Shown here: in pieces, positions 1,247 to 15,324 of the stretch
Numbering within the stretch: position 1 is the stretch's first letter
How the letters are laid out: each line of letters opens with the position of its first letter
Assembly (NCBI GenBank): GCA_019636945.1
Contig: JAHBWO010000020.1
Location: forward strand, 1 to 42,450
Origin: Nitrospira sp.
Lineage (GTDB): Bacteria > Nitrospirota > Nitrospiria > Nitrospirales > Nitrospiraceae
Length of the DNA stretch: 42,450 nucleotides
Direction of reading: 5' to 3'
Position numbers and translations under genes: made by a program
The notes under the pieces: generated by a model
What the model saw: the letters and a program-made list of their open reading frames with translations, nothing else
Told to the model about the DNA's origin: nothing
The model's database searches: none

Positions 1247-1618
1247 GTGGAATTCACACGAACTTATTCACGCCAACACTATCGCGTTCCCCTTACCGTG
1301 CAGTACCCCGTGCTGTTTTCCGCGACTGACAGGATTGCAGAGGGGAAAGTCATGAACATCACGGTGTTCGGCTGCACCATTGAATGTACTGATGCCCTGC
1401 AGCAGGGAACCCCGCTGCGAATGCGATTGATTCTTCCAGACCAGGTTCAGTCGTTAGCGGTAGAGGAAGCAGAAGTTCGATGGGTCCAAGGGAATCGCAT
1501 GGGGGTTCAATTCCACAAGGTTGAGCGTGCCGCAGATTTTCGGCTCCACGGATTTGTGTGGGATCGCATGATCGAGCGATTTCAGACAATTGTTCAGGAT
1601 GGGCTCTCTGCGCGGTGA
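1247..1618 (+). CDS. PilZ-domain protein (probable c-di-GMP receptor)
   Basis: This 123-residue single-domain PilZ protein begins with a GTG codon. RQHYRV near residue 9 supplies the R-x-x-x-R motif, and NITVFGCTIE supplies the N-x-[ST]-x-x-G motif with the usual following Cys. A VRWVQGNRMGVQF segment matches the last barrel strands, and a C-terminal helix follows. It lies just downstream of another PilZ gene on the same strand and may share a transcript. Its last 25 bases overlap the end of the convergent membrane-protein gene on the other strand. The partner or output of the protein cannot be read from the sequence. Confidence 0.85.
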   Translation: MEFTRTYSRQHYRVPLTVQYPVLFSATDRIAEGKVMNITVFGCTIECTDALQQGTPLRMRLILPDQVQSLAVEEAEVRWVQGNRMGVQFHKVERAADFRLHGFVWDRMIERFQTIVQDGLSAR

Positions 1619-2601
1619 TCTTTGCTCGGTTGCCGCTTTCCCACCAAGGCGAGACAGACCAACCCAATACCGATCCAGACGACTTCTCGGAACCGTCGCA
1701 ACAGCGCAAAGGTAATACCCGTCACATCGCTGTAGCCAAAGGCCTGTAATAAGAGGAGATTCCCGGCATCCTGCGCCCCAAGGCTGCCCGGAATAAAACA
1801 GGTCCCGCCTTTAATCAGGGCAGCCAAGGCGCCGATCGAGATGACCGACCACGGGCTGGCGGTGTCACCGAGGCAAGAGAGAATGACAAACACCTCGAGC
1901 GATTCAGCCAACCAGCCAAACAGGCAAACTCCGGTTGACAGTGCGAACGCCTCGCGGTGGTGTCGGTAGAAACTCAGAATCGTTTGGTCGATGGAGCGCA
2001 AGTGCTCTTCTTGCGTCTCAAGCACCCGAATCCGCAATCCCAGTTTCTTGACCATCGACAGCATCGAGGCAAAGAGCCCGCGTTGCTGGACAAAGACAAA
2101 GCCACCAATCGAACAAACCAACACCGCCACACTGACAATTGCCGCCGTAATGGTCTGTCCCGCCGAACCGCCAGTACCCACAATGAAAAGCCCAATGACA
2201 ATCCCGACAAGGATATAGAAGACTTCGGCAATCGTCAGAGTTGTCTTGGCAATCACCACGGACGCAGCGCCCTCCGTAATCGGAACATGGTGCTGCTTCA
2301 ACAGATACACCTTGAGTGGTTCGCCACCCAAATAGGCCGTGGGAGTGGTCATATTCACCACTTCGCCGGCCGTTCGGATTGTCAGTAGGCGCCAGAACGG
2401 CACGGCGTTCGCGGATGGTCCCAGCACCAGCTTCCACCCATAGGCCTCGATCACATACATGATGACAGAGGGAATCAACACAGCAAGCAGCGCGGCAGGC
2501 CCGAGCCTCGACCCCGCCTCATAGATGTTGCTGGGTCCGATATTCCAGACAAGTAGACACAGAACGATGAGGCCAACAGCAAGTAGGATATAGCGCAACA
2601 C
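1594..2601 (-). CDS. Flippase-like integral membrane protein (lysylphosphatidylglycerol synthase TM-region family)
   Basis: The protein has 335 residues and about eight hydrophobic segments. It fits the UPF0104/LPG-synthase transmembrane family (the TIGR00374 flippase-like group), whose members include HpnL and AglD-linked proteins in lipid and glycan export. Family-like features are EAYGWKLVL in the second segment, the conserved TPTAYLGGEP-type stretch (about residues 86-95), and a C-terminal GALAALIKGGTCFIPGSLG followed by QDAGNLLLLQAF. Translation starts at a GTG only 25 bases after the CDP-alcohol phosphotransferase stop, so it is the last gene of the six-gene operon. From that context I infer it moves the lipid or carrier-linked phosphonate product across the inner membrane. 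The biochemical role of the family is poorly established. Confidence 0.75.
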   Translation of the reverse strand: MLRYILLAVGLIVLCLLVWNIGPSNIYEAGSRLGPAALLAVLIPSVIMYVIEAYGWKLVLGPSANAVPFWRLLTIRTAGEVVNMTTPTAYLGGEPLKVYLLKQHHVPITEGAASVVIAKTTLTIAEVFYILVGIVIGLFIVGTGGSAGQTITAAIVSVAVLVCSIGGFVFVQQRGLFASMLSMVKKLGLRIRVLETQEEHLRSIDQTILSFYRHHREAFALSTGVCLFGWLAESLEVFVILSCLGDTASPWSVISIGALAALIKGGTCFIPGSLGAQDAGNLLLLQAFGYSDVTGITFALLRRFREVVWIGIGLVCLALVGKRQPSKDHRAESPS

Positions 2602-2626
2602 GTGAGTCGGATGGGGAACGTAGTGG

Positions 2627-4063
2627 TTATAGCCGAGGTAACGCGACTGCAGATGGACGAATCACCCAGACCATGGCACCGGCGAACAGGAGCGAACCGA
2701 TCGCCGCAAACAGAAGAAACCAAAAGAGCTGATCGAACAACGCGAACCCGATCAAGGAAACTGAGAAATCACGACTGGCGACGTTTTTCAACATCACATC
2801 GGCCCAGGCCGCATGGGCCGGAGTCCTCCATCCAACGGCACGTTTGATCTTCTGCGCCTTTTCGACGAGCAGGAACGAGAGACCATTGCCCAGCACGGCT
2901 GCCCCACCCAGTGCGAGCGGTACCCAGTCATCTTCTTGCCCGATTTGTGCCGTATAGAGCCCGAGGGCAATCCCCGCGAATATCGCCATATGCACGAAAT
3001 TATCCAGAGCGATATCGAGCCAAGCCCCAAATGGCGATTCCGTGAAGGTCAATCGGGCGACTTCTCCGTCACAGCAATCAATCACCGCTGCCAGTTGAAA
3101 CAACAGGGCGGCCAAAATGCCGGCACTGTAGGTTCCCAAGCCAAACCCTGCAGCAGCTACCAGCCCAATAAGCCCCGCTAAAACCGTGATGGAATTGGGA
3201 GACAAGCCGAGCTCGAGGAACAGACGTGTGAATCCACGAGAGACCTTCCGATTGAAATATCGATCAACGAATCCTTCAAAGTCTCCCTTGAGGGAGCTGA
3301 ACAGCTTCTTTTCAGCTCTCTCCACATCCTCCGAGGTCCGCACCGGCTGATACCATGTGCCTCGCTTCTCCTCGGCCGTCACCACATGCAGTCGCCCATC
3401 TGCTGCAACCTGCTCGATCCACTGACGGATCGGCGTGCTGCCTTTTTCATACGCACCCACGTTAGCCGCGTTCATGAGGCTCGCCGGAACAACAAGAAGC
3501 TCGGCGATCAACAGGGTTGACTCGTCCGGACGAACAGAGGCCATGGTCGTCGGGACGGGAAACTGAATTTTCACGCGCATACCGGAATTCGTCGGCAGCT
3601 CGTCCGCCTGCGGTCTCGGCTGGGCCACCACGATGGCATGACCATCCCGTACATCCTGGCGTAATTGCTCAATTAACCCGTGTGAAAACACGCCATTGAC
3701 GGTCGCGATAAGCGCAAATCCACGGACTTCAGCTGCCAAGGCTTCCCATGTCCGAGGATCATCAATGGGAAATTCTCGCATTGGCATCCACCGGACAGGA
3801 ATGGTGACCCGTGGCCCCTTCGCCAGGGAACGCTTGAGCTGCTCCTCATCGGGACCGGAGAGGACAATCAATTGGCGAATCCCGGCCCGCTGCAATGCAA
3901 GCACGGTTCGTTGAAACAGGCCGATCCCCACAACACTAGTGAGGGGTCCTAGTTCACCAACTTCCGATCCGATTGGCCCGCCAAATACTCCAACTGACGG
4001 AAGCAGAATCGCCGTCGCCAATCCTTGGATCTCGACTCGCTTCTGAAGAATACCTTTACTCAT
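2627..4063 (-). CDS. CDP-alcohol phosphotransferase fused to a degenerate nucleotidyltransferase-like domain
   Basis: The protein has 478 residues from the ATG at 4063; a GTG at 4102 would add 13. The C-terminal half (about 265-478) is a CDP-alcohol phosphotransferase. It has the full signature D-x2-D-G-x2-A-R-x8-G-x3-D-x3-D, with D329, D332, G333, A336, R337, G346, D350 and D354, and about six membrane segments. The N-terminal 250 residues resemble a sugar-nucleotidyltransferase fold, as in archaeal IPCT/DIPPS fusions. However, the expected G-x-G-x-R loop is replaced by PSVGVFGG and no P-K motif follows, so this half is probably not catalytic. Such enzymes join a CDP-linked phospho-alcohol to a hydroxyl acceptor in the membrane. 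The PntC-like gene upstream suggests a CDP-aminoalkylphosphonate donor (inference). Confidence 0.82.
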   Translation of the reverse strand: MSKGILQKRVEIQGLATAILLPSVGVFGGPIGSEVGELGPLTSVVGIGLFQRTVLALQRAGIRQLIVLSGPDEEQLKRSLAKGPRVTIPVRWMPMREFPIDDPRTWEALAAEVRGFALIATVNGVFSHGLIEQLRQDVRDGHAIVVAQPRPQADELPTNSGMRVKIQFPVPTTMASVRPDESTLLIAELLVVPASLMNAANVGAYEKGSTPIRQWIEQVAADGRLHVVTAEEKRGTWYQPVRTSEDVERAEKKLFSSLKGDFEGFVDRYFNRKVSRGFTRLFLELGLSPNSITVLAGLIGLVAAAGFGLGTYSAGILAALLFQLAAVIDCCDGEVARLTFTESPFGAWLDIALDNFVHMAIFAGIALGLYTAQIGQEDDWVPLALGGAAVLGNGLSFLLVEKAQKIKRAVGWRTPAHAAWADVMLKNVASRDFSVSLIGFALFDQLFWFLLFAAIGSLLFAGAMVWVIRPSAVALPRL

Positions 4064-4113
4064 GGTTCCAGAGCACCAATATCCAGCGATCGTCGCTCGC
4101 ACCCATCACTTTC

Positions 4114-4833
4114 TCACAATCTTGGCAAAACTTCCAACTCAGCTTTTTTTATATCATTGATAAAATCGATCTCGGTCCAGGGCAATCCTCCGATCTTCTC
4201 ATGCCCCACCCGTACATCGCGGAAATATTCCAACAACGCGTCCTCGTACTCCATCTGCCACATATTTTTCTCAATGTATCCACGGAGGGACGAAACGAGC
4301 CGAGATGTGTCGGCATACTTCACACGGAGAAACCCCACTCCTTCACCGGCATAATCAAAGTGGTCCGGCATCTTCTTGGTAAGGGCGATCACCCTCCCCC
4401 CGGCCACAACCACCATGCACTCTTCACCGGTTTGGGTGACGGTCTCATCCATCAGCAACGCATTCTCACAGGCCGACGAAACAAGGCGCCGCAAAATGTC
4501 TCTGTGGAAGAGCACATCGGCATCCATGACAATGGTGTCGTCATCGAGCGCAGACCGTGCGATCCACAAAGAGGAGATACTGCCCCGATGAAACTCCTCA
4601 TTGACCAAGAATGTGACACCGACTCCACAGGAATCGGCTGCCACAGCCTCACGAATCATCTCCTGCTTATATCCGACCACGATGTCCGCTCGCCGAACCC
4701 CAATCGCAGCCAGTGACTCTAAATAGCGGTGTAAGAGGGATCGCCCCCCGATCTCAATCAAGCACTTGGGGCGATGTTGCGTCACCTCCCAAAGCCGTTT
4801 GCCGACTCCCGCTGCAAGAATGATCGCCTTCAT
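4114..4833 (-). CDS. PntC-like phosphonate/phosphocholine-type cytidylyltransferase
   Basis: The protein has 239 residues and a MobA/LicC-type nucleotidyltransferase fold. The N-terminus carries LAAGVGKRL (the G-x-G-x-R-L nucleotide loop, G9 to L14) and P22-K23. VMDADVLF supplies the metal-binding Asp residues. The C-terminal block with MWQMEYEDAL, then LPWTEIDFINDIKKA, is typical of LicC/PntC enzymes, which load phosphocholine or 2-aminoethylphosphonate onto CMP. The ATG at 4833 overlaps the transaminase stop in an ATGA arrangement, so the two are translationally coupled; an upstream GTG at 4845 is less likely. Linkage of PntC to an AEP transaminase is known for bacterial phosphonate-tailoring loci. 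The exact substrate is inferred from context. Confidence 0.8.
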   Translation of the reverse strand: MKAIILAAGVGKRLWEVTQHRPKCLIEIGGRSLLHRYLESLAAIGVRRADIVVGYKQEMIREAVAADSCGVGVTFLVNEEFHRGSISSLWIARSALDDDTIVMDADVLFHRDILRRLVSSACENALLMDETVTQTGEECMVVVAGGRVIALTKKMPDHFDYAGEGVGFLRVKYADTSRLVSSLRGYIEKNMWQMEYEDALLEYFRDVRVGHEKIGGLPWTEIDFINDIKKAELEVLPRL

Positions 4834-5912
4834 TTCTGACGACACGCCTGTTCAAATGCGTTGAGAAATCCGCCGAACTGTCCCTCCGTCAGCGCTCCCA
4901 TGTTGGCAACACGGAAAATTTTGTTCTCCAGGTTGCCTTGCCCGGCATAAATCACGTAGCCCTGCTGTTTCAGACGATCATGCAAGACTTGGTATGACAG
5001 GCCTTCCGGCAGGTGGTACGCTGTAATGGTATTCGATTGTCGCTCAACCGGGAGAAGAGGCCTCACCCCGAGCTTGGCCATCCCCTCACGGATCACCGTT
5101 GCCATCTTCTTGTAGCGTTGGATACGATTCGATACGCCTTCTTCGAGCAGCTCATTCAACGCCTCGTCGAATGCGTAGTAGACCTGCACGGCCGGTGTGA
5201 ACGGAATCATTCCCCGCCCTTCATTGTCGATGTAATGGGTTAGATGGAGATACCACGAACGTTTTGGGTACGTGCGCATTTTTTCGACGAACCCCTTCCG
5301 GACAAGCACGAAGGACACACCCGGGAATCCCTGGATGCATTTTCCTGCCGTGCCTACCACCATATAAATGTGCGACTTGGCGATATCGAGCGTCTCTCCA
5401 GCCAAGGCGCTGACGGCATCCAGTACGAACACGCGATTCTGATTGTCGACAATTTCGGCGACCTCGTGGACGGGATTAAGGAGTCCGGTCGTCGTCTCAT
5501 GGTGCACCATTCCGACGACATGCACTTCTGGATGCTGACGAAGAGCAAGCAGCAGCCGTTCAGGATCAGGACGAACCGCCCACTCATACTTCAACTCACT
5601 GACTCCTAAGCGATGGAGCCCGATGATCTGGGACATCCGCTCGCCATAGACCCCGTTGTTGAGGATGAGCATACGTTTGCCATGAGGAAGCGACGACATC
5701 AACGCGGCCTCGACAGCAGCAGTCCCTGACCCCGTCATAAGGACGGCAACGTATTCCGATTCAGCTCCTGGGACAAAGGCCGAGAGCAGTTTGGTTTGGA
5801 TACGATGAAGCAGCTCAGAGAACTCTGCTTCCCGGTGACAGATGTCGGGTTTCACGAGCGATTGACGGACACGCTCCGAAACATTGACCGGACCTGGATT
5901 CAGGAGAACCAT
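4830..5912 (-). CDS. phnW: 2-aminoethylphosphonate-pyruvate-type transaminase (class V aminotransferase)
   Basis: This 360-residue PLP enzyme has the PhnW/AEPT motif order: NPGPV at residues 5-9, PDICHREAEF near 22-31, TGSGTAAVEA near 60-69, HHETTTGLLNP near 137-147, D165-A-V-S, and K191 in AGKCIQGFPG as the expected Schiff-base Lys. AEP transaminases convert between AEP plus pyruvate and phosphonoacetaldehyde plus alanine; in a biosynthetic operon the amination direction is expected. The start at 5912 is set by AGGAG seven bases upstream; a start at 5948 would skip this site. It lies 60 bases after the decarboxylase beta gene and overlaps the cytidylyltransferase by four bases. A related alanine-glyoxylate or serine transaminase cannot be excluded by sequence alone. 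Confidence 0.82.
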   Translation of the reverse strand: MVLLNPGPVNVSERVRQSLVKPDICHREAEFSELLHRIQTKLLSAFVPGAESEYVAVLMTGSGTAAVEAALMSSLPHGKRMLILNNGVYGERMSQIIGLHRLGVSELKYEWAVRPDPERLLLALRQHPEVHVVGMVHHETTTGLLNPVHEVAEIVDNQNRVFVLDAVSALAGETLDIAKSHIYMVVGTAGKCIQGFPGVSFVLVRKGFVEKMRTYPKRSWYLHLTHYIDNEGRGMIPFTPAVQVYYAFDEALNELLEEGVSNRIQRYKKMATVIREGMAKLGVRPLLPVERQSNTITAYHLPEGLSYQVLHDRLKQQGYVIYAGQGNLENKIFRVANMGALTEGQFGGFLNAFEQACRQK

Positions 5913-5972
5913 CTTTTTCTCCTTCGGGCTACGAACAGACAATCCCACACGTCGGTGAACTTCCCCTCTCAG

Positions 5973-6554
5973 CTATCCCTCAATCGCTTTCATGAACCGT
6001 CGGGTAATGACGGGAGGCTCGTGCACCACACGCCCTGCATCTTCTACAAACTCATTCACCTTGATGAGCAAAAAACTCGGACCATCTTTCTTCAGCATGT
6101 CCTTGAACTCATAGACCAGATCGTCACGATCGAGCACCCGTTCCACATTGAGGTAGCCGGCTGATTTGGCCACCTTGTCCAAAGGCACCACATTGGAAAT
6201 CGTAGGCTGATTCCCCGTCGTCCCATACACTTCGTTATCGAACACGACGTGGATAAAATTCTTTGGTCGTAACGCACCGACCGTCGCAAGCGTGCCCATT
6301 CCCATGAGCACATTCCCGTCCCCATCGAACGTCACCACCTGCTTGTTCGGCTTTACCAACGCGACTCCGAGTGCAATCGCAGCAGCATTCCCCATAGATC
6401 CGACCATATAGAAGTGTGTGGGGCGATCGGCAATCTTGTGTACCTCACGAGAAGGAAACCCATTACAGATCACGACGGGTTGATCAGCCAACAACTCCAA
6501 TAACGTCGCAATCGCCTGGGCTCGGCTGATGAGCGTACCTTCTTCCGGTCTCAT
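5973..6554 (-). CDS. Phosphonopyruvate/sulfopyruvate decarboxylase, beta (TPP-binding) subunit
   Basis: This 193-residue protein matches the C-terminal, diphosphate-binding half of TPP-dependent phosphonopyruvate and sulfopyruvate decarboxylases. It has MGNAAAIALG, the TPP/metal motif G78-D79-G80 running to N107 (KNFIHVVFDNEVYG), and GTTGNQPT. The ATG at 6554 overlaps the alpha-subunit stop (ATGA), which argues against a longer start at 6635. Classical phosphonopyruvate decarboxylases are single chains of about 380 residues. A split alpha/beta pair is the arrangement of archaeal ComDE sulfopyruvate decarboxylase, so family alone does not fix the substrate. The downstream CTP-activating and CDP-alcohol enzymes favour a phosphonate, since a sulfonate has no phosphorus to link to CMP. 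Confidence 0.82.
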   Translation of the reverse strand: MRPEEGTLISRAQAIATLLELLADQPVVICNGFPSREVHKIADRPTHFYMVGSMGNAAAIALGVALVKPNKQVVTFDGDGNVLMGMGTLATVGALRPKNFIHVVFDNEVYGTTGNQPTISNVVPLDKVAKSAGYLNVERVLDRDDLVYEFKDMLKKDGPSFLLIKVNEFVEDAGRVVHEPPVITRRFMKAIEG

Positions 6555-7099
6555 GGATGCAGTCCCCTCACCACACCCTTCGCGAGGAGAAGCACGACGG
6601 GAATCTGCATCTTTATCGAGGTATCCATAACCCATCGTACATCTTCGACGGCCGTTTTTTCGGTCAATGTCCGATGAGGGATCCTCACCGTGTCGAGCAG
6701 TTGCAGCATGGCCTCGCCCATCACCCGATGTTCGGGCGCATCGTTTCTATCTTGGCCCCGCCATGACACCAGCAACAAACACGGTTGGCGATAGATTAGA
6801 TTGAGTGAGATGAGGGTATTCAAACAAGTCCCGAGTCCGGAATTCTGCATCAAAACAGCTGGGACCCTCCCTGCCATGTATGCGCCTGCCGCTATGCCGA
6901 CCGCTTCATCCTCCCGGACAGCCGGGACATAGAGCCTTCGAATCATGAGTTCCGCAATAATTCCACCAAGGATGGAATCCGGAACCCCGGTGAAAAAATT
7001 CACCCCCATATCCTGCATGCTCTGTACAAATACGTCGCTGTTAATCACAAGAGGTGTCCCGCACACTTGCTCAATAGATACAGGCTGAAACCGGCGCAT
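6551..7099 (-). CDS. Phosphonopyruvate/sulfopyruvate decarboxylase, alpha (pyrimidine-binding) subunit
   Basis: This 182-residue protein corresponds to the N-terminal half of Ppd/ComD-type TPP enzymes. FFTGVPDSILGG (about residues 35-46) is a family hallmark, and REDEAVGIAAGAYMAG contains the Glu (E63 by alignment) that activates the TPP pyrimidine ring. LMQNSGLGTCLNTLISL and LLLVSWRGQ complete the typical pattern. It is the first gene of the operon and is coupled to the beta subunit by a four-base overlap. The ATG at 7099 has a distant GAGGG; an internal GTG before INSDVF could be the true start and would remove about 18 residues. The predicted reaction is decarboxylation of phosphonopyruvate to phosphonoacetaldehyde, which pulls the unfavourable PEP mutase equilibrium forward. 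Confidence 0.8.
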   Translation of the reverse strand: MRRFQPVSIEQVCGTPLVINSDVFVQSMQDMGVNFFTGVPDSILGGIIAELMIRRLYVPAVREDEAVGIAAGAYMAGRVPAVLMQNSGLGTCLNTLISLNLIYRQPCLLLVSWRGQDRNDAPEHRVMGEAMLQLLDTVRIPHRTLTEKTAVEDVRWVMDTSIKMQIPVVLLLAKGVVRGLHP

Positions 7100-7183
7100 T
7101 ATAAGATAGCCCTCGGCGGATTCTCAAGAAAGATTGAGTGGTTGTGTTCATACCAGGCACATGGTAGCGTGAGGAAATTCGCG

Positions 7184-7738
7184 ATGGACCCGACTCAACT
7201 ACGAACAGTGACTCGCATCCCTCATCTGACATATCATCCCAGGATTGCTGCGCTGCTACTCCTCTTGATACTCGGCATGGACTCGGCATGGGCGGTATCC
7301 ATGACGGACGATCCGAAGGGTTTTCGAGATATTCTCTGGGGGACAATCTTGTCCTCGCGCCAGGATGTGGAGCCGTTTCGCTCCAGCACCCACGTCATTG
7401 AATATTTACCCAAGACAGATTCGCTCTCGTTTGCCGACACTCAGATGACCAGCATTCTCTACCTCTCAGTCGATAATCAGTTCGCACGAGTGACGATCCG
7501 CTACCAGGGCAGTAACGTCCATAAAGAAGTACTCACGTACCTAGAAACTCGTTTCGGTCGGTTGGATCGCATACCAGGGCAAATGACACGTGGCCTGACA
7601 CAGCAATATAACTGGCGTGGATCCGATACGGAGATCAACCTGACCTATCAAGCCGGAACAGAGCGAGGTTATATTTTCTTTGATAGTCGAACCCTTGCCC
7701 CGCGGTTCAATGACTACATCACTGACTCTGCAGAGTAG
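7184..7738 (+). CDS. Secreted protein of unknown function, first of a tandem paralogous pair
   Basis: The protein has 184 residues. A hydrophobic stretch (IAALLLLLILG) ending in DSAWA near residue 37 looks like a signal peptide, so the mature protein is probably periplasmic. I do not recognise the family. It shares with the next gene the pattern D-P-x-G-F, I-x-W-G, R-V-T-[IA]-R-Y, LDR-x-PGQ, TEI-x-L and ERG-x-[IV]-FF-[DE]-SRTL, so the two are paralogues. The ATG at 7184 was chosen because GTGAGG lies about ten bases upstream and the signal peptide follows; the frame is open back to 7067. It diverges from the phosphonate operon and is followed three bases later by its paralogue. Confidence 0.72.
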   Translation: MDPTQLRTVTRIPHLTYHPRIAALLLLLILGMDSAWAVSMTDDPKGFRDILWGTILSSRQDVEPFRSSTHVIEYLPKTDSLSFADTQMTSILYLSVDNQFARVTIRYQGSNVHKEVLTYLETRFGRLDRIPGQMTRGLTQQYNWRGSDTEINLTYQAGTERGYIFFDSRTLAPRFNDYITDSAE

Positions 7739-7741
7739 GTT

Positions 7742-8275
7742 ATGGCGAGGCACTCTTTAGGACGATTGGCCTTCCTCGTATCAGTATTGGCACCTCTGGC
7801 CTTTCTAGGGTCGAGCCAGTTCTCATCTGCGGTCCCTATCGCACATGATCCCAATGGGTTTGAGACGATTCCGTGGGGATCGATTCTTGAAGAAATGAAG
7901 GCGTTCACAAAAATCGACGATGCAGGTCGCGTGCAGGCCTACGAGTTGAGCGGACAAATTCCCATGCTCGGAGGAGCCCCCGTGGACTCCCTGCGCTTTA
8001 CCACGTTTGAGAAAAAATTAGGTCGTGTAACTGCGCGATATACCGGTCAAACGAGCCACACTAAGATCCTGAGCTATTTGGAATCGAAGTATGGTCCCCT
8101 TGATCGTACACCAGGCCAAATTGCTGCTGGTTCGACCAAGGTCTACGCCTGGCAAGGAATGTACACAGAGATTACGTTGCGCTTTGAAAGCGGGCTTGAA
8201 CGCGGGATCGTATTTTTTGAAAGTCGAACCTTACCTGAAAAATTGACTGATGAGACCTCGACCACGGCTTTTTGA
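7742..8275 (+). CDS. Secreted protein of unknown function, second of a tandem paralogous pair
   Basis: The protein has 177 residues with a clear N-terminal signal peptide (hydrophobic core LAFLVSVLAPLAFLG, likely cleavage near SSA at about 28-30). The mature part repeats the scaffold of the preceding protein: HDPNGFETIPWGS, RVTARYTGQTSH, a YLESKYGPLDRTPGQ block and ERGIVFFESRTL. The order and spacing are the same, so it is a tandem duplication that has diverged substantially. The ATG is three bases after the upstream stop, implying one transcript and perhaps translational coupling. The function is unknown; both lie next to PilZ genes but show no PilZ signature themselves. Confidence 0.75.
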   Translation: MARHSLGRLAFLVSVLAPLAFLGSSQFSSAVPIAHDPNGFETIPWGSILEEMKAFTKIDDAGRVQAYELSGQIPMLGGAPVDSLRFTTFEKKLGRVTARYTGQTSHTKILSYLESKYGPLDRTPGQIAAGSTKVYAWQGMYTEITLRFESGLERGIVFFESRTLPEKLTDETSTTAF

Positions 8276-8502: not shown

Positions 8503-8910
8503 ATGATCGTCAAGTCAATCATGATTGGCCGAAAGCAGTACAGCCCGCTCGACAAACGATGTGCCGAACGTGTCGCCATTACCTGTCGCGTACACTATAC
8601 CGGTGAAGTCCCGACTCAACCCCATCAAGGAGAGGGGCTCACAAAAAACATCTCGGTTTCCGGATGCCACGTCATTAGTGACCAGCATGTCACTCGGGGA
8701 ACACTCCTGACGCTTACCATCGCTCTTCCAGACGGATTGCCTCAGTTATCTTTAGAATCAGCGCTGGTCGTTTGGGTATCTGGCAACCAATTTTCAGTTA
8801 GATTTCTGGATCTGAGCCGCGACCATCGAAAACGGATTCAAAACTTCATTTGGAAAAGTATTTCCCACCATACTGTGAGCGACCATCGGACGCGATTCCG
8901 GCTTGTCTAG
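8503..8910 (+). CDS. PilZ-domain protein (probable c-di-GMP receptor)
   Basis: This 135-residue single-domain PilZ protein has RCAERVAITCRV, which supplies R-x-x-x-R, and TKNISVSGCHV, which supplies N-x-S-x-x-G with the trailing Cys also seen in the PilZ gene at 1247. ALVVWVSGNQFSVRFLDLS matches the final barrel strands, and a helix follows. It is the third PilZ gene of the window. The ATG at 8503 is used; another at 8521 is possible and neither has a strong ribosome site. The 227-base gap upstream contains short open frames that do not look like genes. Confidence 0.82.
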   Translation: MIVKSIMIGRKQYSPLDKRCAERVAITCRVHYTGEVPTQPHQGEGLTKNISVSGCHVISDQHVTRGTLLTLTIALPDGLPQLSLESALVVWVSGNQFSVRFLDLSRDHRKRIQNFIWKSISHHTVSDHRTRFRLV

Positions 8911-10159: not shown

Positions 10160-10810
10160 GTGATAAGTGCTTACTCATCTGCCATGAACAACGTTGTCAG
10201 ACCGGCTCGCCAGCGGCTAGGCAGGACCTCGATTCATCAACGGCAGGCAAGCCTGATCAGTGCAGCCGCATCGCTTTTTGCGGCAATAGGTTTTAGAGGG
10301 ACCACAACAAAACCAATCACGCTGGCAGCAGGTGTCAGCGAGACACTGCTTTTCAAACACTTCCCTACCAAGCACGCTCTGTACTCGGTCCTTCTATCTG
10401 AGAAGACCCATTACTCTGGACTACAGGAATCGCTGGAAGAGGCCGCAGCAAAACGAGAAGATAAGCGACTCTTCATGTTGCTTGCCAACTATCGAATCAG
10501 AAAGGGAGCAGACCCAATATTGTTTCGTCTACTCCTGTTCAGTGCGTTAGAAAGCCATGCGATGTCGGATATGTTTTTTCAGCAACAGTATCGAATATTT
10601 CATGATCGCCTTTCCGGCTATATCCGACAACGCATCGATGAGGGTGCCTACCGCTTAGTGGATCCGGTACTGGCGGCGAGAGCTTTTTTCGGCATCATTG
10701 TCCATCATCGATTGCTCCATGACATTCTGGGTTTACCCATGCATCTGAGTCATGAGACTGCCGTGGAGGAGTATGCCTCCCTGTTCCTCAACGGACTCAT
10801 TCCGCAATGA
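10160..10810 (+). CDS. TetR/AcrR-family transcriptional regulator
   Basis: The protein has 216 residues from a GTG start, or 208 from the ATG at 10184; neither has a clear ribosome site. Residues about 24-75 form the TetR DNA-binding domain: a helix with LISAAASLFAAIGF, then TTTKPITLAAGVSETLLFKHF as the helix-turn-helix, and a K-HALYSVLL extension. The remaining 140 residues are helical and divergent, as expected for a ligand-binding and dimerisation domain. It stands 27 bases before a membrane-fusion protein and an RND permease on the same strand. It therefore most likely represses its own pump operon and releases DNA on binding a pump substrate (inference). Confidence 0.85.
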   Translation: MISAYSSAMNNVVRPARQRLGRTSIHQRQASLISAAASLFAAIGFRGTTTKPITLAAGVSETLLFKHFPTKHALYSVLLSEKTHYSGLQESLEEAAAKREDKRLFMLLANYRIRKGADPILFRLLLFSALESHAMSDMFFQQQYRIFHDRLSGYIRQRIDEGAYRLVDPVLAARAFFGIIVHHRLLHDILGLPMHLSHETAVEEYASLFLNGLIPQ

Positions 10811-10837
10811 CTCAATCCGCCGTGATTCAATCCTGAT

Positions 10838-12025
10838 ATGCACCAACTCTCTCGCCATCCGTTGATCGCTCTAGGCTTGATCGTTGTTTTGGCGGTCAGT
10901 GGTCTGGTGGTCTTACGCCTCACTACTGGTGCCAAAACTGACACGGTGCGAACGCGTGTGGTCACGGTAGGGATTGCACCACCAATTCGAGCAGACCTCG
11001 ACATTCGCTTAGCCTATACGGCTGATATCTCACCCTATCAGGTCGTCAATATTTTCTCCCGGGTTGACGGGTATATCGCCAAGCTCCATGTGGATAAAGG
11101 TGATTTCGTGAAGTTCAACCAGTTACTGGTTGAAATTGACCATACGGACTATCACCATGCTGTGAATCAAGCCAAAGCCAATCTTTCGGCCGCTCAGGCA
11201 AAAGTCGCACAACAGGATGCCGTCCTTCGTAACGCCAAACTGACATTTGATCGTATGCAGGCGCTCATCAAAGACCAATTCGTGTCTCAGCAGGATTTGG
11301 ATAATGCTCAGGTCAACCTCGATGCCGCCACCGCCGCACAGAATTCGTTCGAAGCCCAAGTCAATCAAATGAAAGTGGCGCTGGCTCAGTCGGAAAGAAA
11401 CTTGACCTACTCGTATATCCGAGCACCGTTTGCGGGCTATGTTGCGGAACGGAACCTTGATACCGGAGCGTATGTGAGCAGCGCAACCGCGAGCACGTCC
11501 ACAATGTCGCGGGGTATCATGAGCCTACATGACATCAATACTGTCCGCGTATTGATCGAGGTCGTTGAACGGGATATCCCTCTCGTACAGGTGGGACAAC
11601 CAGCTGAGCTTCGCGCGGAGGCTTACCCCGACCATGTCTTCGAAGGAACTGTGACACGCATCGTCCAAGCCTTGAATCGCGCAACCCGTACCATGACCGT
11701 CGAGATCGACTTACCAAATAGTGACCAACGACTCAAAGGAGGCATGTTTGCTCGAGTTGAGGTCCTGGTGGGAACCCACCGCCAGGCTTTACAAGTCCCG
11801 ATCGATGCTGTCAGCCGACTGGAAGGCACCCAGTACGTCTATGTCGTTCGAGACGGTAGAGCCCGACGTATAGAAGTTGAGGTCGGACCTCGCAGCGGCA
11901 ACCGCATTGAAATTCTTAAAGGATTAATGGGGGATGAAGCGGTGATCGTATCCGGTAAAGACTTAGTCCACGATGGAAGAGCGGTGCAAACCCAACCCCT
12001 CACTACTGGGGAACGTGAGACGTAA
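10838..12025 (+). CDS. RND efflux periplasmic adaptor (membrane-fusion protein)
   Basis: The protein has 395 residues. A single N-terminal membrane anchor (about residues 8-28, no lipobox) is followed by the biotinyl-lipoyl-like half motif VDGYIAKLHVDKGDFV. A long helical hairpin comes next (about 100-195, Ala/Gln-rich with VSQQDLDNAQ), then the second lipoyl half YIRAPFAGYVAERNLDTGAYV. The beta-barrel and membrane-proximal domains end with VPIDAVSRLEGTQYVYVV. These are the standard domains of HlyD/AcrA-type adaptors that link an RND permease to an outer-membrane channel. The gene lies between the TetR gene and the permease gene. No TolC-type channel gene is present, so the pump probably uses one encoded elsewhere. 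Confidence 0.9.
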   Translation: MHQLSRHPLIALGLIVVLAVSGLVVLRLTTGAKTDTVRTRVVTVGIAPPIRADLDIRLAYTADISPYQVVNIFSRVDGYIAKLHVDKGDFVKFNQLLVEIDHTDYHHAVNQAKANLSAAQAKVAQQDAVLRNAKLTFDRMQALIKDQFVSQQDLDNAQVNLDAATAAQNSFEAQVNQMKVALAQSERNLTYSYIRAPFAGYVAERNLDTGAYVSSATASTSTMSRGIMSLHDINTVRVLIEVVERDIPLVQVGQPAELRAEAYPDHVFEGTVTRIVQALNRATRTMTVEIDLPNSDQRLKGGMFARVEVLVGTHRQALQVPIDAVSRLEGTQYVYVVRDGRARRIEVEVGPRSGNRIEILKGLMGDEAVIVSGKDLVHDGRAVQTQPLTTGERET

Positions 12026-12093
12026 GACATGAGATGCAAAGGAACAACAAGATTTCGCCGGCCCCCTGACGACTCTCTCACGAAGGGTTTCCC

Positions 12094-12121
12094 CTTTCAC
12101 TTTTCACCTTTCACCTTTCAC
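12094..12121 (+). repeat. Four heptamers NTTTCAC just upstream of the RND permease start
   Basis: The units are CTTTCAC, TTTTCAC, CTTTCAC and CTTTCAC in immediate tandem. The tract ends eight bases before the permease ATG, where a Shine-Dalgarno sequence would be expected and none is seen. An equivalent four-unit tract of GTTTCAC occurs at 25963-25990, before hpnA. Confidence 0.85.
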
Positions 12122-12129
12122 CGACCTAT

Positions 12130-15100
12130 ATGTGGCTGACCCTTCTCGCATTGCGCAATCGCATCGGGATCCTCATGCTCTCGCTCGCGATGGTCGTGCT
12201 GGGCCTCACGGCTCTCCAACGCTTGCCGGTGGATCTCTTCCCCCAAATCCAGGTCCCTGTTGCTTTTGTCGGTGTCATCTATAAGGGGGCACCTCCGCTC
12301 GATATTGAACAAAGCGTCGTGTACCCGATTGAGAAAGCCGTAAGCTCTGCGTCCAATGTTGAACATGTCGAATCATTCAGCAAGCAGGGCCTCGGGGCTG
12401 TGCAGATCTGGTTCAACTGGGGAGCCGATATCGACGTGGGGCAGATGGAGGTGATGCAGCGCATTACTCAGATTTTGAATAGTCTCCCACCAGGCATTCT
12501 GCAACCCTTTATCGTCAAATTTGACGTATCCAATATCCCCGTCTCCATCGTGTCGGTCGCGAGTGACGAACTGGACGAACGAGCCCTCTACGATCTGGCG
12601 TACAACACCATCGCCCCCCAAATCGAACAAATCGCGAACGTCGCTGCAGCCACGGTCGAAGGCGGGAGAATCCGCCAAATCAATATCAATCTCGACCCCG
12701 CGTTGCTCAGTGCCCGCGGGCTTTCGATTCTCGATGTCGTGAAGTCCGTCAAAGCCTCAAACGTCATTCTCCCTTCCGGTGATGTCAAATCCGGCAATCT
12801 CGACTACAACGTCTTCACCAACAATCAATTCCGCACCGTGGAGCCCATCCAGGACGTCATCATCAAGGTGAATCCGCAAGGCAACCCAGTCCGGGTACGT
12901 GATGTGGGAACCGTGACCGATTCGTCTGACATTCAAACCAATATCGTGCATGCAGACGGAGCCAGATCCGTGTTCCTTCGTGTGAACAAACAGCCGATCG
13001 CCAATACGGTCGAGGTTGTGGATGCCCTCCGTGCAGCCTTACCCAAAATACTTGGAGTTCCCGAGGGAGTAAATCTCAGCATCTCATTTGACCAGTCTCT
13101 CTATATACGCCAGTCCATCCGCAATCTCGTTGAACAGGCCCTTCACGGCTCGTTACTGGCCGCAGCAGTGATCTTCGTCTTTCTGCGCAACCTGACGAGC
13201 ACCGTGATCGTCTCCGTCGCCATTCCGCTCTCCATGCTTGTCACCTTTATCGTGCTCTATTTCACAGGACAAACGTTGAACGTCTTCACGCTCGGAGGAC
13301 TTGCTCTCGGCATTGGTCGACTCGTTGATGACTCCATCGTGGAACTGGAAAACATCCAACGGCACCTCAATACCAACCCCAACCGCTGGGACAGTATTCT
13401 CACTGCCGCCCGAGAAGTGGCCATGCCGATTTTGGCATCGACGGTGACGACTGTGGTGGTCTTTCTTCCCATGTTTTTCGTCGTTGGTATCGCGCGCCTG
13501 TTGTTGATTCCCTTGACGCTCACCATCGCGATTGCGCTCTTTACATCTTTTTTGGTCTCTCGAACCGTTACCCCTGCTCTCTGCTACAAATTCCTCAGAC
13601 CAGAACAAGAAGCCCATCGGGCAATGCCACACTGGCTGGCCACCCTCATGGAATGGAGCCGTCACCGCTATGACTCGCTCGACAGAGGTTACGAAGACTC
13701 TTTGCGGTGGGTACTTGGACATCGCCGCCTCTTTATCTTGGTGGTTCTGCTCATCTTTATCGGATCACTCATGTTGATCCCCCGGATTGGAACCGAATTC
13801 CTGCCTGTATCCGATGAGAGTCAGTTTCGCCTCGTCCTGCGGGCCCCGGTCGGCCAACGAGTCGAAAGGACCGAACTACAAGTCACTGAAGTAGAACGTG
13901 TCCTTCGTACCCTCATCCCTTCGAATGAACTGGAAACCATCGTCTCCAGTACCGGCATCTTGTCCCAAGGCCGTGCGTCTCTGTTTAATCCCAATACCGG
14001 ACCTCATACCTCATCGATTCAAGTGTATTTGGTTTCACCAGAAAAACGGACCAGGAGCCAAGTCGATATCATGAACGATGTCCGTCCGAAAATCGTGAAG
14101 CTGTTTCCCGGTGTCTCGATGTATTTCGACCCTGGGGGGATCGTCAAACGTGTCACCAGCTTCGGATCTCAAAAGGCCGTCGATGTGGAGATCTATGGGT
14201 ATGACTTCGACAAAGCCAGAGAAGTTATCGCGCAAGTGAAGGAGATCATGGAGCAGACTCCCGGCCTGGCCGACATCGAACCGAGTCGGGAAGAAAACTA
14301 CCCGGAAATCAACGTCACGGTCGATCGAGAGAAAGCCGCACTGCTCGGTATCAGTGAAGCGGATGTCGCCAGTACCGTCCTCTTTTCTTTGAATGGGAAT
14401 GGTCAAACCGACCCCATCATTTACACAGACCCGCACAACGGTAACGAGTACTTCATTAATGCTTGGTTAGCCGAGGAGCATCGATCCTCTCTCACCGATC
14501 TGGAACACATCCTCCTCACGACCAAGACCGGTGAGCCTGTGTTGCTGAAAAATGTGGCGTCGCTCAAACTGAACGCAGGCCCGGTCAAGATTGATCGTAA
14601 ATATTTCCAGCGCGTGATTCACCTGACGGCCAATCCCACTACGCGCACTCTCGGCGAGATTGCGAGCGATCTGGAGTCAGCCTTTTCTGAACTGCAGCTA
14701 CCGGCAGGATTCAGCATCAGACTAGCCGGACAAATTCAACAACAACGTGAAACCTTTCAGGGAATGCAGTTCGCCATCATACTGTCACTCCTGCTGGTCT
14801 ATATGGTGATGGCCGCCCAGTTTAAATCGCTCATCGATCCGTTCATCATCATGTTTGCAGTGCCGATGGGTCTCCCTGGTGTCATCTTGATCTTGTTCCT
14901 CACCGACACGACGCTTTCGACCGCATCGCTGATGGGCATCATCATGATGTTTGGGATTGTTGTCTCGAACGGGGTGTTACTGGTGGATTACACCAACGTC
15001 TTGCGGCGCCGAGGCACTCTTCTTCAGAACGCCGTGGTGACCGCCGCACGTACGAGGTTGCGGCCGATTCTCATGACCTCACTCGCAACGATCTTTGGAC

Positions 15101-15324
15101 TCCTGCCCATGGCGATCGGGCTGGGTACCGGCGGGGAAACGAACGCACCTCTCGCACGAGCAGTGGTTGGAGGCCTGACGGTTTCCACCCTCCTCACCGT
15201 GTTTCTCATCCCGACGTTGTATATGATTTTAGAAGAATGGGTACCGAGAGACCTGGAAGAAGAGCGGCACCATTCCACGCCAGCAACCCCAAGTGCCGTT
15301 ACAACGACAGAATGGCGGCCTTAA
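12130..15324 (+). CDS. RND-family efflux permease (AcrB/HAE1-like)
   Basis: The 1064-residue length is normal for an RND transporter. The N-terminus opens with the first membrane helix and LPVDLFPQIQVP, the usual L-P-x-x-x-x-P-x-I motif. A large periplasmic domain follows. The helix-4 motif GIGRLVDDSIVELENI keeps the two adjacent Asp residues that carry protons. The second half repeats the layout, with a helix before IGTEFLPVSDESQF and a C-terminal helical bundle (LLVYMVMAAQFKSL, GIVVSNGVLLVDY). These pumps are trimeric inner-membrane proton antiporters exporting drugs or lipophilic compounds through an adaptor and outer channel. The adaptor gene lies 104 bases upstream. The start codon lacks a ribosome site and sits behind a heptamer tract. 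The last four bases overlap the convergent SCP2 gene. Confidence 0.92.
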   Translation: MWLTLLALRNRIGILMLSLAMVVLGLTALQRLPVDLFPQIQVPVAFVGVIYKGAPPLDIEQSVVYPIEKAVSSASNVEHVESFSKQGLGAVQIWFNWGADIDVGQMEVMQRITQILNSLPPGILQPFIVKFDVSNIPVSIVSVASDELDERALYDLAYNTIAPQIEQIANVAAATVEGGRIRQININLDPALLSARGLSILDVVKSVKASNVILPSGDVKSGNLDYNVFTNNQFRTVEPIQDVIIKVNPQGNPVRVRDVGTVTDSSDIQTNIVHADGARSVFLRVNKQPIANTVEVVDALRAALPKILGVPEGVNLSISFDQSLYIRQSIRNLVEQALHGSLLAAAVIFVFLRNLTSTVIVSVAIPLSMLVTFIVLYFTGQTLNVFTLGGLALGIGRLVDDSIVELENIQRHLNTNPNRWDSILTAAREVAMPILASTVTTVVVFLPMFFVVGIARLLLIPLTLTIAIALFTSFLVSRTVTPALCYKFLRPEQEAHRAMPHWLATLMEWSRHRYDSLDRGYEDSLRWVLGHRRLFILVVLLIFIGSLMLIPRIGTEFLPVSDESQFRLVLRAPVGQRVERTELQVTEVERVLRTLIPSNELETIVSSTGILSQGRASLFNPNTGPHTSSIQVYLVSPEKRTRSQVDIMNDVRPKIVKLFPGVSMYFDPGGIVKRVTSFGSQKAVDVEIYGYDFDKAREVIAQVKEIMEQTPGLADIEPSREENYPEINVTVDREKAALLGISEADVASTVLFSLNGNGQTDPIIYTDPHNGNEYFINAWLAEEHRSSLTDLEHILLTTKTGEPVLLKNVASLKLNAGPVKIDRKYFQRVIHLTANPTTRTLGEIASDLESAFSELQLPAGFSIRLAGQIQQQRETFQGMQFAIILSLLLVYMVMAAQFKSLIDPFIIMFAVPMGLPGVILILFLTDTTLSTASLMGIIMMFGIVVSNGVLLVDYTNVLRRRGTLLQNAVVTAARTRLRPILMTSLATIFGLLPMAIGLGTGGETNAPLARAVVGGLTVSTLLTVFLIPTLYMILEEWVPRDLEEERHHSTPATPSAVTTTEWRP

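Follow-up and report, generated by a model that had tools for sequence, protein, structure and literature searches.

A proposed phosphonate head-group operon with a CDP-alcohol phosphotransferase in Nitrospira, and a candidate second class of PEP mutase in its relatives

Which enzyme supplies the carbon-phosphorus bond to an operon that seems to build and activate a phosphonate head group, and onto what is that head group placed? The question is raised by six genes in a 42,450-nucleotide stretch of DNA (hereafter the window) from Nitrospira sp., a member of a genus of major nitrite oxidisers. The window makes up the whole of contig C113, in a 4.36 Mb genome with ratings of 88% for completeness and 6% for contamination. 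No phosphoenolpyruvate (PEP) mutase was found within the window, as a preliminary description of this DNA had correctly stated. Our reading from sequence comparison, to which we give a probability of roughly 0.7, is that the operon would make 2-aminoethylphosphonate (AEP), load it onto cytidine monophosphate (CMP), transfer it to a probable membrane lipid and flip the product, with the mutase encoded elsewhere in the genome and, in relatives, a cysteine-containing version of it (the Cys form) in its place. Within this reading, the order from AEP through CMP-AEP to head-group transfer is well supported by the mutase encoded elsewhere and by the PntC likeness and residues of the cytidylyltransferase, and the acceptor is probably a membrane lipid, chosen because the cytidine diphosphate (CDP)-alcohol transferase and the flippase-like protein come as a pair. 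All six open reading frames (ORFs) lie on the minus strand and span 7099 to 1594:

6551..7099, minus strand: predicted decarboxylase alpha subunit (PpdA/ComD-like), the first operon gene; TPP_enzyme_N; 122 bits to the first half of TIGR03297
5973..6554, minus strand: predicted decarboxylase beta subunit (PpdB/ComE-like); TPP_enzyme_C; 177 bits to the second half of TIGR03297; ATGA overlap with the alpha subunit gene
4830..5948 (start may be 5912), minus strand: predicted 2-aminoethylphosphonate transaminase; Aminotran_5; 347.2 bits to TIGR03301; lysine in KCIQGFPG
4114..4833, minus strand: PntC-like AEP cytidylyltransferase; NTP_transf_3; nearest solved structure Treponema denticola PntC; ATGA overlap with the transaminase gene
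2627..4102 (start may be about 4063), minus strand: predicted CDP-alcohol phosphotransferase with a cytidylyltransferase-like N-terminal region; CDP-OH_P_transf
1594..2601, minus strand: flippase-like membrane protein, HpnL-related, the last operon gene; LPG_synthase_TM, 119 bits

The head-to-tail arrangement given in the preliminary description was confirmed, its families agree with Pfam (the six domains named above) and NCBIfam, and its two four-base overlaps and short gaps were found as stated: ATGA was read in the sequence at 6554-6551 and at 4833-4830, and the other three gaps measure 11 to 25 bases if the longest starts are taken and more with later starts.

In the proposed pathway, a PEP mutase encoded on another contig would make phosphonopyruvate, which the split decarboxylase of the operon, a single-chain decarboxylase, or both, would turn into phosphonoacetaldehyde. 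The transaminase would then give AEP and the stand-alone PntC-like enzyme CMP-AEP, from which the CDP-alcohol phosphotransferase would place AEP on an alcohol, most likely a lipid, before the flippase-like protein flips the product. Where relatives have no canonical mutase, the first step would most likely fall to the Cys-form mutase (EDNxxPKRCSF), exchanged with the canonical one.

The mutase of the source genome, which the preliminary description had expected elsewhere in the genome unless the substrate was a different one (naming its complete absence as a result that would speak against the interpretation), is encoded on contig C68 (C68:29581-30318 in the genome search; gene at L003:15516-17180). 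The protein of 554 residues fuses a PEP-mutase domain to an NTP_transf_3 nucleotidyltransferase domain, reaches 388.7 bits on TIGR02320 (cut-off 319.55) and carries the EDKx5NS motif as EDKLFPKTNS. Its best solved relative is the Mytilus PEP mutase (421.7 bits), and in score and motif it agrees with the canonical enzymes (Mytilus 1m1b, Streptomyces platensis 5unc). It is predicted to convert PEP to phosphonopyruvate. A single-chain phosphonopyruvate decarboxylase (492 bits, over the cut-off) lies directly downstream at L003:17299-18432, which gives the source genome two decarboxylases, the split one of the operon and the single-chain one on C68. As a check on contamination of C68, nucleotide composition was uninformative (tetranucleotide correlation 0.60 between C68 and the window, and 0.47 between the two halves of the window); the same layout recurs in G193, the closest relative listed (CDP-alcohol transferase 96% identical), and this recurrence is the better argument that C68 belongs to the genome.

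Across the phylum, 245 genomes were searched with the CDP-alcohol transferase, and 164 gave a match at E 0.001, many of them weak superfamily matches; the match is strong in all 29 same-genus genomes listed (the source included) and in most of the family, the listed non-matches starting only at genomes of the same family. Searches for the mutase and the decarboxylase covered 79 genomes (the family, the order, and G157 and G159 of the class), the operon loci were read in 78 of these (all but G159), and 75 have the CDP-alcohol gene. The conservation that the preliminary description had proposed to check is extensive: all six genes were found in 73 of the 75 loci and are ordered alike throughout Nitrospira and Nitrospirales, the exceptions to the count being G133, in which no separate PntC was found, and G165, in which no flippase was found and the contig ends. 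In G081 the CDP-alcohol transferase and flippase pair is located elsewhere, and in G108, G135 and G216 the flippase lies 1.1 to 2.5 kb further away. The single-chain decarboxylase is over its cut-off in 18 of the 79 genomes, and all 18 carry a canonical mutase.

A mutase of either the canonical or the Cys form is held by 73 of the 75 operon genomes, and this co-occurrence ties the operon to a PEP mutase. It bears directly on a mutase-free route, in which decarboxylation of 3-phosphohydroxypyruvate and transamination would give phosphoethanolamine, to be activated by the cytidylyltransferase to CDP-ethanolamine. Such a route would suit G214 and G234, which have the operon and in which no mutase was found; however, besides the co-occurrence, three genomes without a mutase (G060, G220 and G143, rated 100% complete) have lost half of the operon together with the transaminase lysine, and an ethanolamine lipid would be supplied anyway by phosphatidylserine decarboxylase, present in all 20 of the 79 genomes in which acceptor markers were searched. 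We rejected the phosphoethanolamine route on the co-occurrence and regard it as very improbable. In the three reduced genomes the PpdA-PpdB-transaminase module is kept (L097:5900-8289, L098:5323-7739 and L099:5477-8894), PntC, the CDP-alcohol transferase and the flippase are missing at the locus, neither mutase form was found, and the transaminases show AHDC, SHDC and AHVG in place of the lysine; the module may be reused or decaying. In G060 (L097) a CstA-like symporter gene follows it.

The statement that the operon stands without a local PEP mutase holds for the source genome and fails for many relatives, in which a mutase-like gene lies next door. The TIGR02320 search of the 79 genomes gave 55 matches over the cut-off and 18 genomes whose best match reached only 268-290 bits. 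Of the 55 over-cut-off genomes, reading for the motif covered 30 loci fetched from the matches and four more loci, and EDKx5NS was present in every one. All 18 lower-scoring genomes have EDN-(V/I)-(Y/F)-PKRCSF, 16 of them beside the operon, the other two being G157 and G137. This Cys-form protein is a fusion with a cytidylyltransferase-like domain, has cysteine at the equivalent of Asn122 and usually adjoins the operon. The two forms exclude each other among the 75 operon genomes, 55 having the canonical form only, 18 the Cys form only, none both and two neither; with an expected overlap of 13.2, the probability of no overlap is 2e-15 if the two were independent, a figure that ignores relatedness. 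Six of the 79 genomes have neither form, namely G214 and G234, with an intact operon, and G060, G220, G143 and G159, without this CDP-alcohol transferase. On a tree of four operon proteins the mutase label changes at least 8 times (a quick search, with G157 on a very long branch and G214 and G234 left uncounted), and decayed Cys-form remnants lie beside the operon in three canonical genomes (G043, G036 and G151); none was found beside the operon of the window, where one was looked for. A nucleotidyltransferase domain is fused to both mutase forms, and the fusion persists when the mutase is swapped.

Two further observations concern mutase genes. A third fusion type occurs in G177, which also carries the usual canonical fusion: on its contig C5 (L106:5565-7004) a canonical PEP mutase (398.8 bits, EDKKGLKRNS) is preceded by a cytidylyltransferase-like domain at the N-terminus. 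In G242, a canonical genome, short broken PEP-mutase-like pieces lie off the operon contig (G242:C11:62426-62709; L256), with neither motif in the fetched stretch.

We consider it likely, as one joint claim, that the Cys form is a second class of PEP mutase carrying a fused cytidylyltransferase-like domain, with a lyase-type cysteine (EDNxxPKRCSF) where EDKx5NS has its asparagine; that it is the sole candidate for carbon-phosphorus bond formation in bacteria under about ten phylum labels, among them the cultured nitrite oxidiser Nitrospira moscoviensis (L184); that it feeds AEP-lipid operons and has traded places with the canonical enzyme eight or more times in Nitrospirales; and that phosphonate surveys filtering by motif missed the whole class. 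Its mutase activity is suggested by the replacement of one form by the other and by the company of its genes. By sequence, the solved relatives of the G157 protein are headed by PEP mutase 5unc (303 bits), followed by a phosphonopyruvate hydrolase (2dua, 231.5), PEP mutase 1m1b (230), the petal death protein (137) and, lower, methylisocitrate lyases. An AlphaFold2 model of the Cys form (pLDDT 90.2, pTM 0.57) superposes on 5unc with a TM score of 0.96-0.97 of the target and a root-mean-square deviation of 1.3-1.5, on the hydrolase with 0.96-0.97 and on the lyases with 0.83-0.90. In 36 aligned Cys-form proteins the equivalents of D58, D85, D87, E114, K120, S123, R159 and H190 are invariant (36/36), whereas cysteine replaces N122 in 36, arginine T121 in 34 and asparagine K116 in 35. 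The Cys form shares the fold and eight active-site residues of the canonical enzyme (1m1b, 5unc) and differs from it at these last three positions.

Within the isocitrate lyase superfamily, the Cys form might instead be a lyase or a phosphonopyruvate hydrolase. All 120 of its best homologues listed have PKRCSF and none EDKx5NS, the protein falls under the TIGR02320 cut-off in all 18 genomes, its KRC resembles the KRC or KKC of the lyases, and, according to PMC7916636, most authors attribute the difference between mutase and hydrolase to Asn122Thr, an attribution questioned by the writers of that paper. The hydrolase structure is, moreover, nearly as close in fold as that of the mutase, so that fold alone would accommodate a hydrolase. 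We nevertheless regard this alternative as unlikely: the mutase is nearest both in sequence and in fold and the lyases are far behind, eight other PEP-mutase residues are invariant, the Cys form excludes and replaces the canonical mutase while travelling with decarboxylase and transaminase, and a hydrolase would waste the pathway's own substrate. When two lyases served as the root, a mutase-domain tree put the canonical mutase and the hydrolase (99/96) inside the Cys-form rows, and was not relied on because of its long branches.

The split decarboxylase halves reach 122 and 177 bits on TIGR03297 (phosphonopyruvate decarboxylase, cut-off 312.5), each covering half of the model, and the GDG...N pattern of the beta subunit is present in 78/78 homologues. 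Unlike the single-chain phosphonopyruvate decarboxylase, the window enzyme is split, as is the sulfopyruvate decarboxylase ComDE, and the sulfopyruvate decarboxylase subunit models fit it about as well (119 and 183 bits, each below its cut-off). On these scores alone the split enzyme could equally be a sulfopyruvate decarboxylase and the product a taurine-type head group. The operon company, however, is of the phosphonate kind and differs from that of ComDE, canonical PEP mutases substitute for the Cys form in the swaps, and PntC-type activation requires a phosphonate or a phosphate according to PMC6697681; together these leave the sulfonate route a very slim chance, although no search for sulfonate-forming genes was made. 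The transaminase scores 347.2 bits on the AEP transaminase model (TIGR03301, cut-off 360.8). The lysine of its KCIQG stretch, to which we assign the pyridoxal phosphate role, is kept in 75/75 operon genomes and missing in 3/3 genomes without mutase and transferase.

Two kinds of cytidylyltransferase could make CMP-AEP, the stand-alone enzyme of the operon and the domain fused to the mutase. For the former, the PntC-like assignment of the preliminary description was upheld, T. denticola PntC (6pd1) being the nearest solved structure (E 6.4e-16). In a single alignment of low identity, where LicC is out of register at 104-106, the window enzyme retains R15, K25, D106, K153 and E196 and has Asp at E104, as in LicC; positions Glu104 and Glu196 lie near the AEP amine in T. 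denticola PntC. Its GxG-R-PK motif reads GVGKR...PK, with the K153 equivalent, and GxGxR is present in 74/74 PntC-like homologues (72 by pattern, 2 read in printed rows). The mutase-fused domains (one canonical and one Cys-form protein compared) carry Glu at the R15 position and Asn or Gln in place of K153, and in T. denticola PntC the R15A, K25A and K153A variants each retained <10% activity (PMC6697681). Since the fused domains lack the R15 and K153 equivalents, CMP-AEP formation probably falls to the stand-alone enzyme and is less likely for the fused domain, which possibly acts on other substrates. The known Pnt pathway (T. denticola and A. rimae PntC; Rice et al. 2019, PMC6697681) shares PEP mutase, decarboxylase, AEP transaminase and PntC-type cytidylyltransferase with the pathway proposed here, and it too has a mutase-fused domain together with a separate cytidylyltransferase. 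It differs in that here activated AEP is predicted to pass to a CDP-alcohol phosphotransferase with a flippase-like partner (the main text of PMC6697681 does not contain "CDP-alcohol"), and in that here the mutase gene either lies apart from the operon or gives way to the Cys form.

The CDP-alcohol phosphotransferase is over the PF01066 cut-off, and DxxDGxxAR(x8-9)GxxxDxxxD, which we take to be the signature of these enzymes, is found in 75/75 homologues. Its closest database protein is 99% identical and named Nitrospira sp., and a broken second copy, in several frames, lies in G200 (G200:C1:1226098-1227555) about 15 kb from the intact one. The nearest solved structures are IPCT-DIPPS and AF2299 (4mnd, 4o6m), and like them it has a CDP-alcohol domain together with an N-terminal region that is nucleotidyltransferase-like. 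The likeness goes further in G173 and G199, where one open frame (488 and 486 residues) joins the PntC domain itself to the CDP-alcohol domain. This likeness suggests inositol-phosphate chemistry as in the archaeal pair, in which cytidylyltransferase and CDP-alcohol enzyme would make an inositol phosphodiester, and NF041135 indeed matches the CDP-alcohol enzyme at 99 bits and the cytidylyltransferase at 80 bits (cut-off 580, set for the fusion); the Joint Genome Institute (JGI) names some homologues as IPCT-DIPPS type. However, inositol-1-phosphate synthase (PF01658) was not found in the source genome nor in 18 of the 20 genomes tested; the CDP-alcohol enzyme that lies about 0.8 kb from an inositol synthase in G195 is a different one (33% identical) from that of the operon; and the operon neighbours are AEP-making genes. 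The inositol-phosphate route was rejected for want of the synthase, and of all the routes weighed it seems to us the least probable.

The acceptor is where the proposed pathway meets its most serious competitor, in which the CMP-AEP chemistry is the same and the acceptor, instead of diacylglycerol, is either the precursor of a glycan or a lipid of the hopanoid, other polycyclic or polyprenyl type. The flippase-like protein matches HpnL and other LPG_synthase_TM proteins over its whole length but stays below the HpnL cut-off (TIGR03476, 151.5 bits; cut-off 195.65), which its counterpart at L180 nearly reaches (192.5 bits). At the Rokubacteria locus L174 a squalene-hopene cyclase and an HpnN-like transporter surround a Cys-form operon, and hopene-making capacity is present in 19 of the 20 genomes tested. 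On the other side, hopene cyclase also occurs in G060, G220 and G143, all without the transferase, hopanoid neighbours are found at only 1/80 Cys-form loci, and no hopanoid gene was recognised among the ORFs scanned near the flippase in the window. A different acceptor is possible, though less likely, and hopanoid linkage as a rule was rejected on the 1/80 count. Of the acceptor markers, hopene cyclase (19/20), phosphatidylserine decarboxylase (20/20) and inositol synthase (2/20), none tracks the operon. The idea that an AEP lipid substitutes for a missing ethanolamine lipid was likewise rejected, given phosphatidylserine decarboxylase in 20/20 genomes.

Several findings weigh against the AEP-lipid pathway with its exchanged mutases. 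Hopene cyclase and phosphatidylserine decarboxylase occur in almost every genome tested, whether or not it has the operon, and point to no acceptor; the Cys form lacks EDKx5NS and scores under the TIGR02320 cut-off of 319.55; the sulfopyruvate models fit the split decarboxylase about equally; decarboxylase beta, transaminase and flippase fall below their NCBIfam cut-offs; the source genome is only 88% complete and 6% contaminated; the operon tree is quick and has one very long branch; and in G214 and G234 (94-95% complete), with the operon intact, no mutase was found despite a repeat search. The first interpretation, a phosphonate head-group operon, is supported and largely right, the lipid acceptor and the flipping step being its predicted parts. 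The non-canonical mutase beside the operon in relatives and the second, single-chain decarboxylase of the source genome had not been foreseen.

Beyond Nitrospirota, a scan of named genomes yielded 137 loci, of which the best 80 were kept; ED-xxx-PKxCS is present in all 80 and EDKx5NS in none. Their labels, some of them doubtful, are Nitrospirota (43), Binatota (7), Myxococcota (7), Planctomycetota (5), Acidobacteriota (5), Pseudomonadota (4), Omnitrophota (3), Rokuibacteriota (2), Chlamydiota (1), Campylobacterota (1) and unassigned (2). At 49 of the 80, a gene for a decarboxylase subunit is no more than 6.5 kb away; of the 31 loci without one, 15 have at least 3 kb on both sides, and in 14 of these 15 a decarboxylase is present elsewhere in the genome (one weak, 78.6 bits), none having been found in the genome of L192. 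An AEP transaminase above 330 bits stands beside the distant decarboxylase in 11/15. The genomes of 33 of the 80 loci, many of them from other phyla, were searched with TIGR02320 at E 1e-60; each gave one match, of 263-306 bits, and a canonical mutase over the cut-off was found in none of the 33, of which G278 is probably the same genome as G105 (same place and score).

Three of these loci deserve mention. In Acidobacteria (L198:4922-12024) an aldehyde dehydrogenase takes the place of the transaminase between decarboxylase and flippase; it scores 506.9 bits on the phosphonoacetaldehyde dehydrogenase model (cut-off 635.65) and 528.4 on a lactaldehyde dehydrogenase model, and the arrangement would predict phosphonoacetate instead of AEP. 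The Rokubacteria locus (L174:5423-20542) holds the squalene-hopene cyclase (781.6 bits), MlaF-like and MlaD genes, the Cys-form mutase, a fused decarboxylase, PntC-like, CDP-alcohol transferase and flippase genes, an inositol-1-phosphate synthase-like ORF (by eye) and the HpnN-like transporter, which is below its cut-off; no transaminase was seen at this locus. L183, from a record titled as a Klebsiella pneumoniae metagenome-assembled genome, has a Cys-form operon, in a genome of only 3.1 Mb, whose mutase groups with that of L185, labelled Deltaproteobacteria, and the Klebsiella label is probably wrong.

Around the operon of the window, PilZ-domain genes flank both sides (599-1618 and 8503-8910), and directly upstream (7067-8275) lie two adjacent ORFs that are alike by eye (DPxGF, FESRTLP or FDSRTLA) and have no Pfam match. 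A TetR regulator, an HlyD-type adaptor and an AcrB-type pump follow at 10160-15324; an ORF with nearly the same starting residues as this pump (by eye) lies near the decarboxylase genes in L097-L099.

The motif that the Cys form lacks has served to define PepM. PMC6697681, PMC8931226 and PMC12723261 all require EDKx5NS, and the first of these discarded 26,231 sequences that lack it. The Cys form may be among the 22 discarded sequences in which other domains are fused on; surveys built on this motif would discard the class. Among the papers listed by searches of the open-licence PMC literature, no report of phosphonate biosynthesis in Nitrospira or of a PepM without the motif was found, and PMC9239080, which mentions Nitrospira moscoviensis and phosphonate, deals in its phosphonate passage with uptake by Thaumarchaeota.

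Taken by itself, the predicted pathway of the window is a new member of the known Pnt kind with a CDP-alcohol branch; what surprises is the Cys-form mutase found in its relatives. Carbon-phosphorus chemistry would enter Nitrospira with a core pathway for phosphonate head groups, and for the step after CMP-AEP, about which little is known, the CDP-alcohol phosphotransferase is a concrete candidate, which two genomes encode in natural fusion with the PntC domain. If the Cys form is indeed a PEP mutase, Asn122 would be replaceable by cysteine, and the motif used for counting phosphonate producers would undercount them in the groups listed above.

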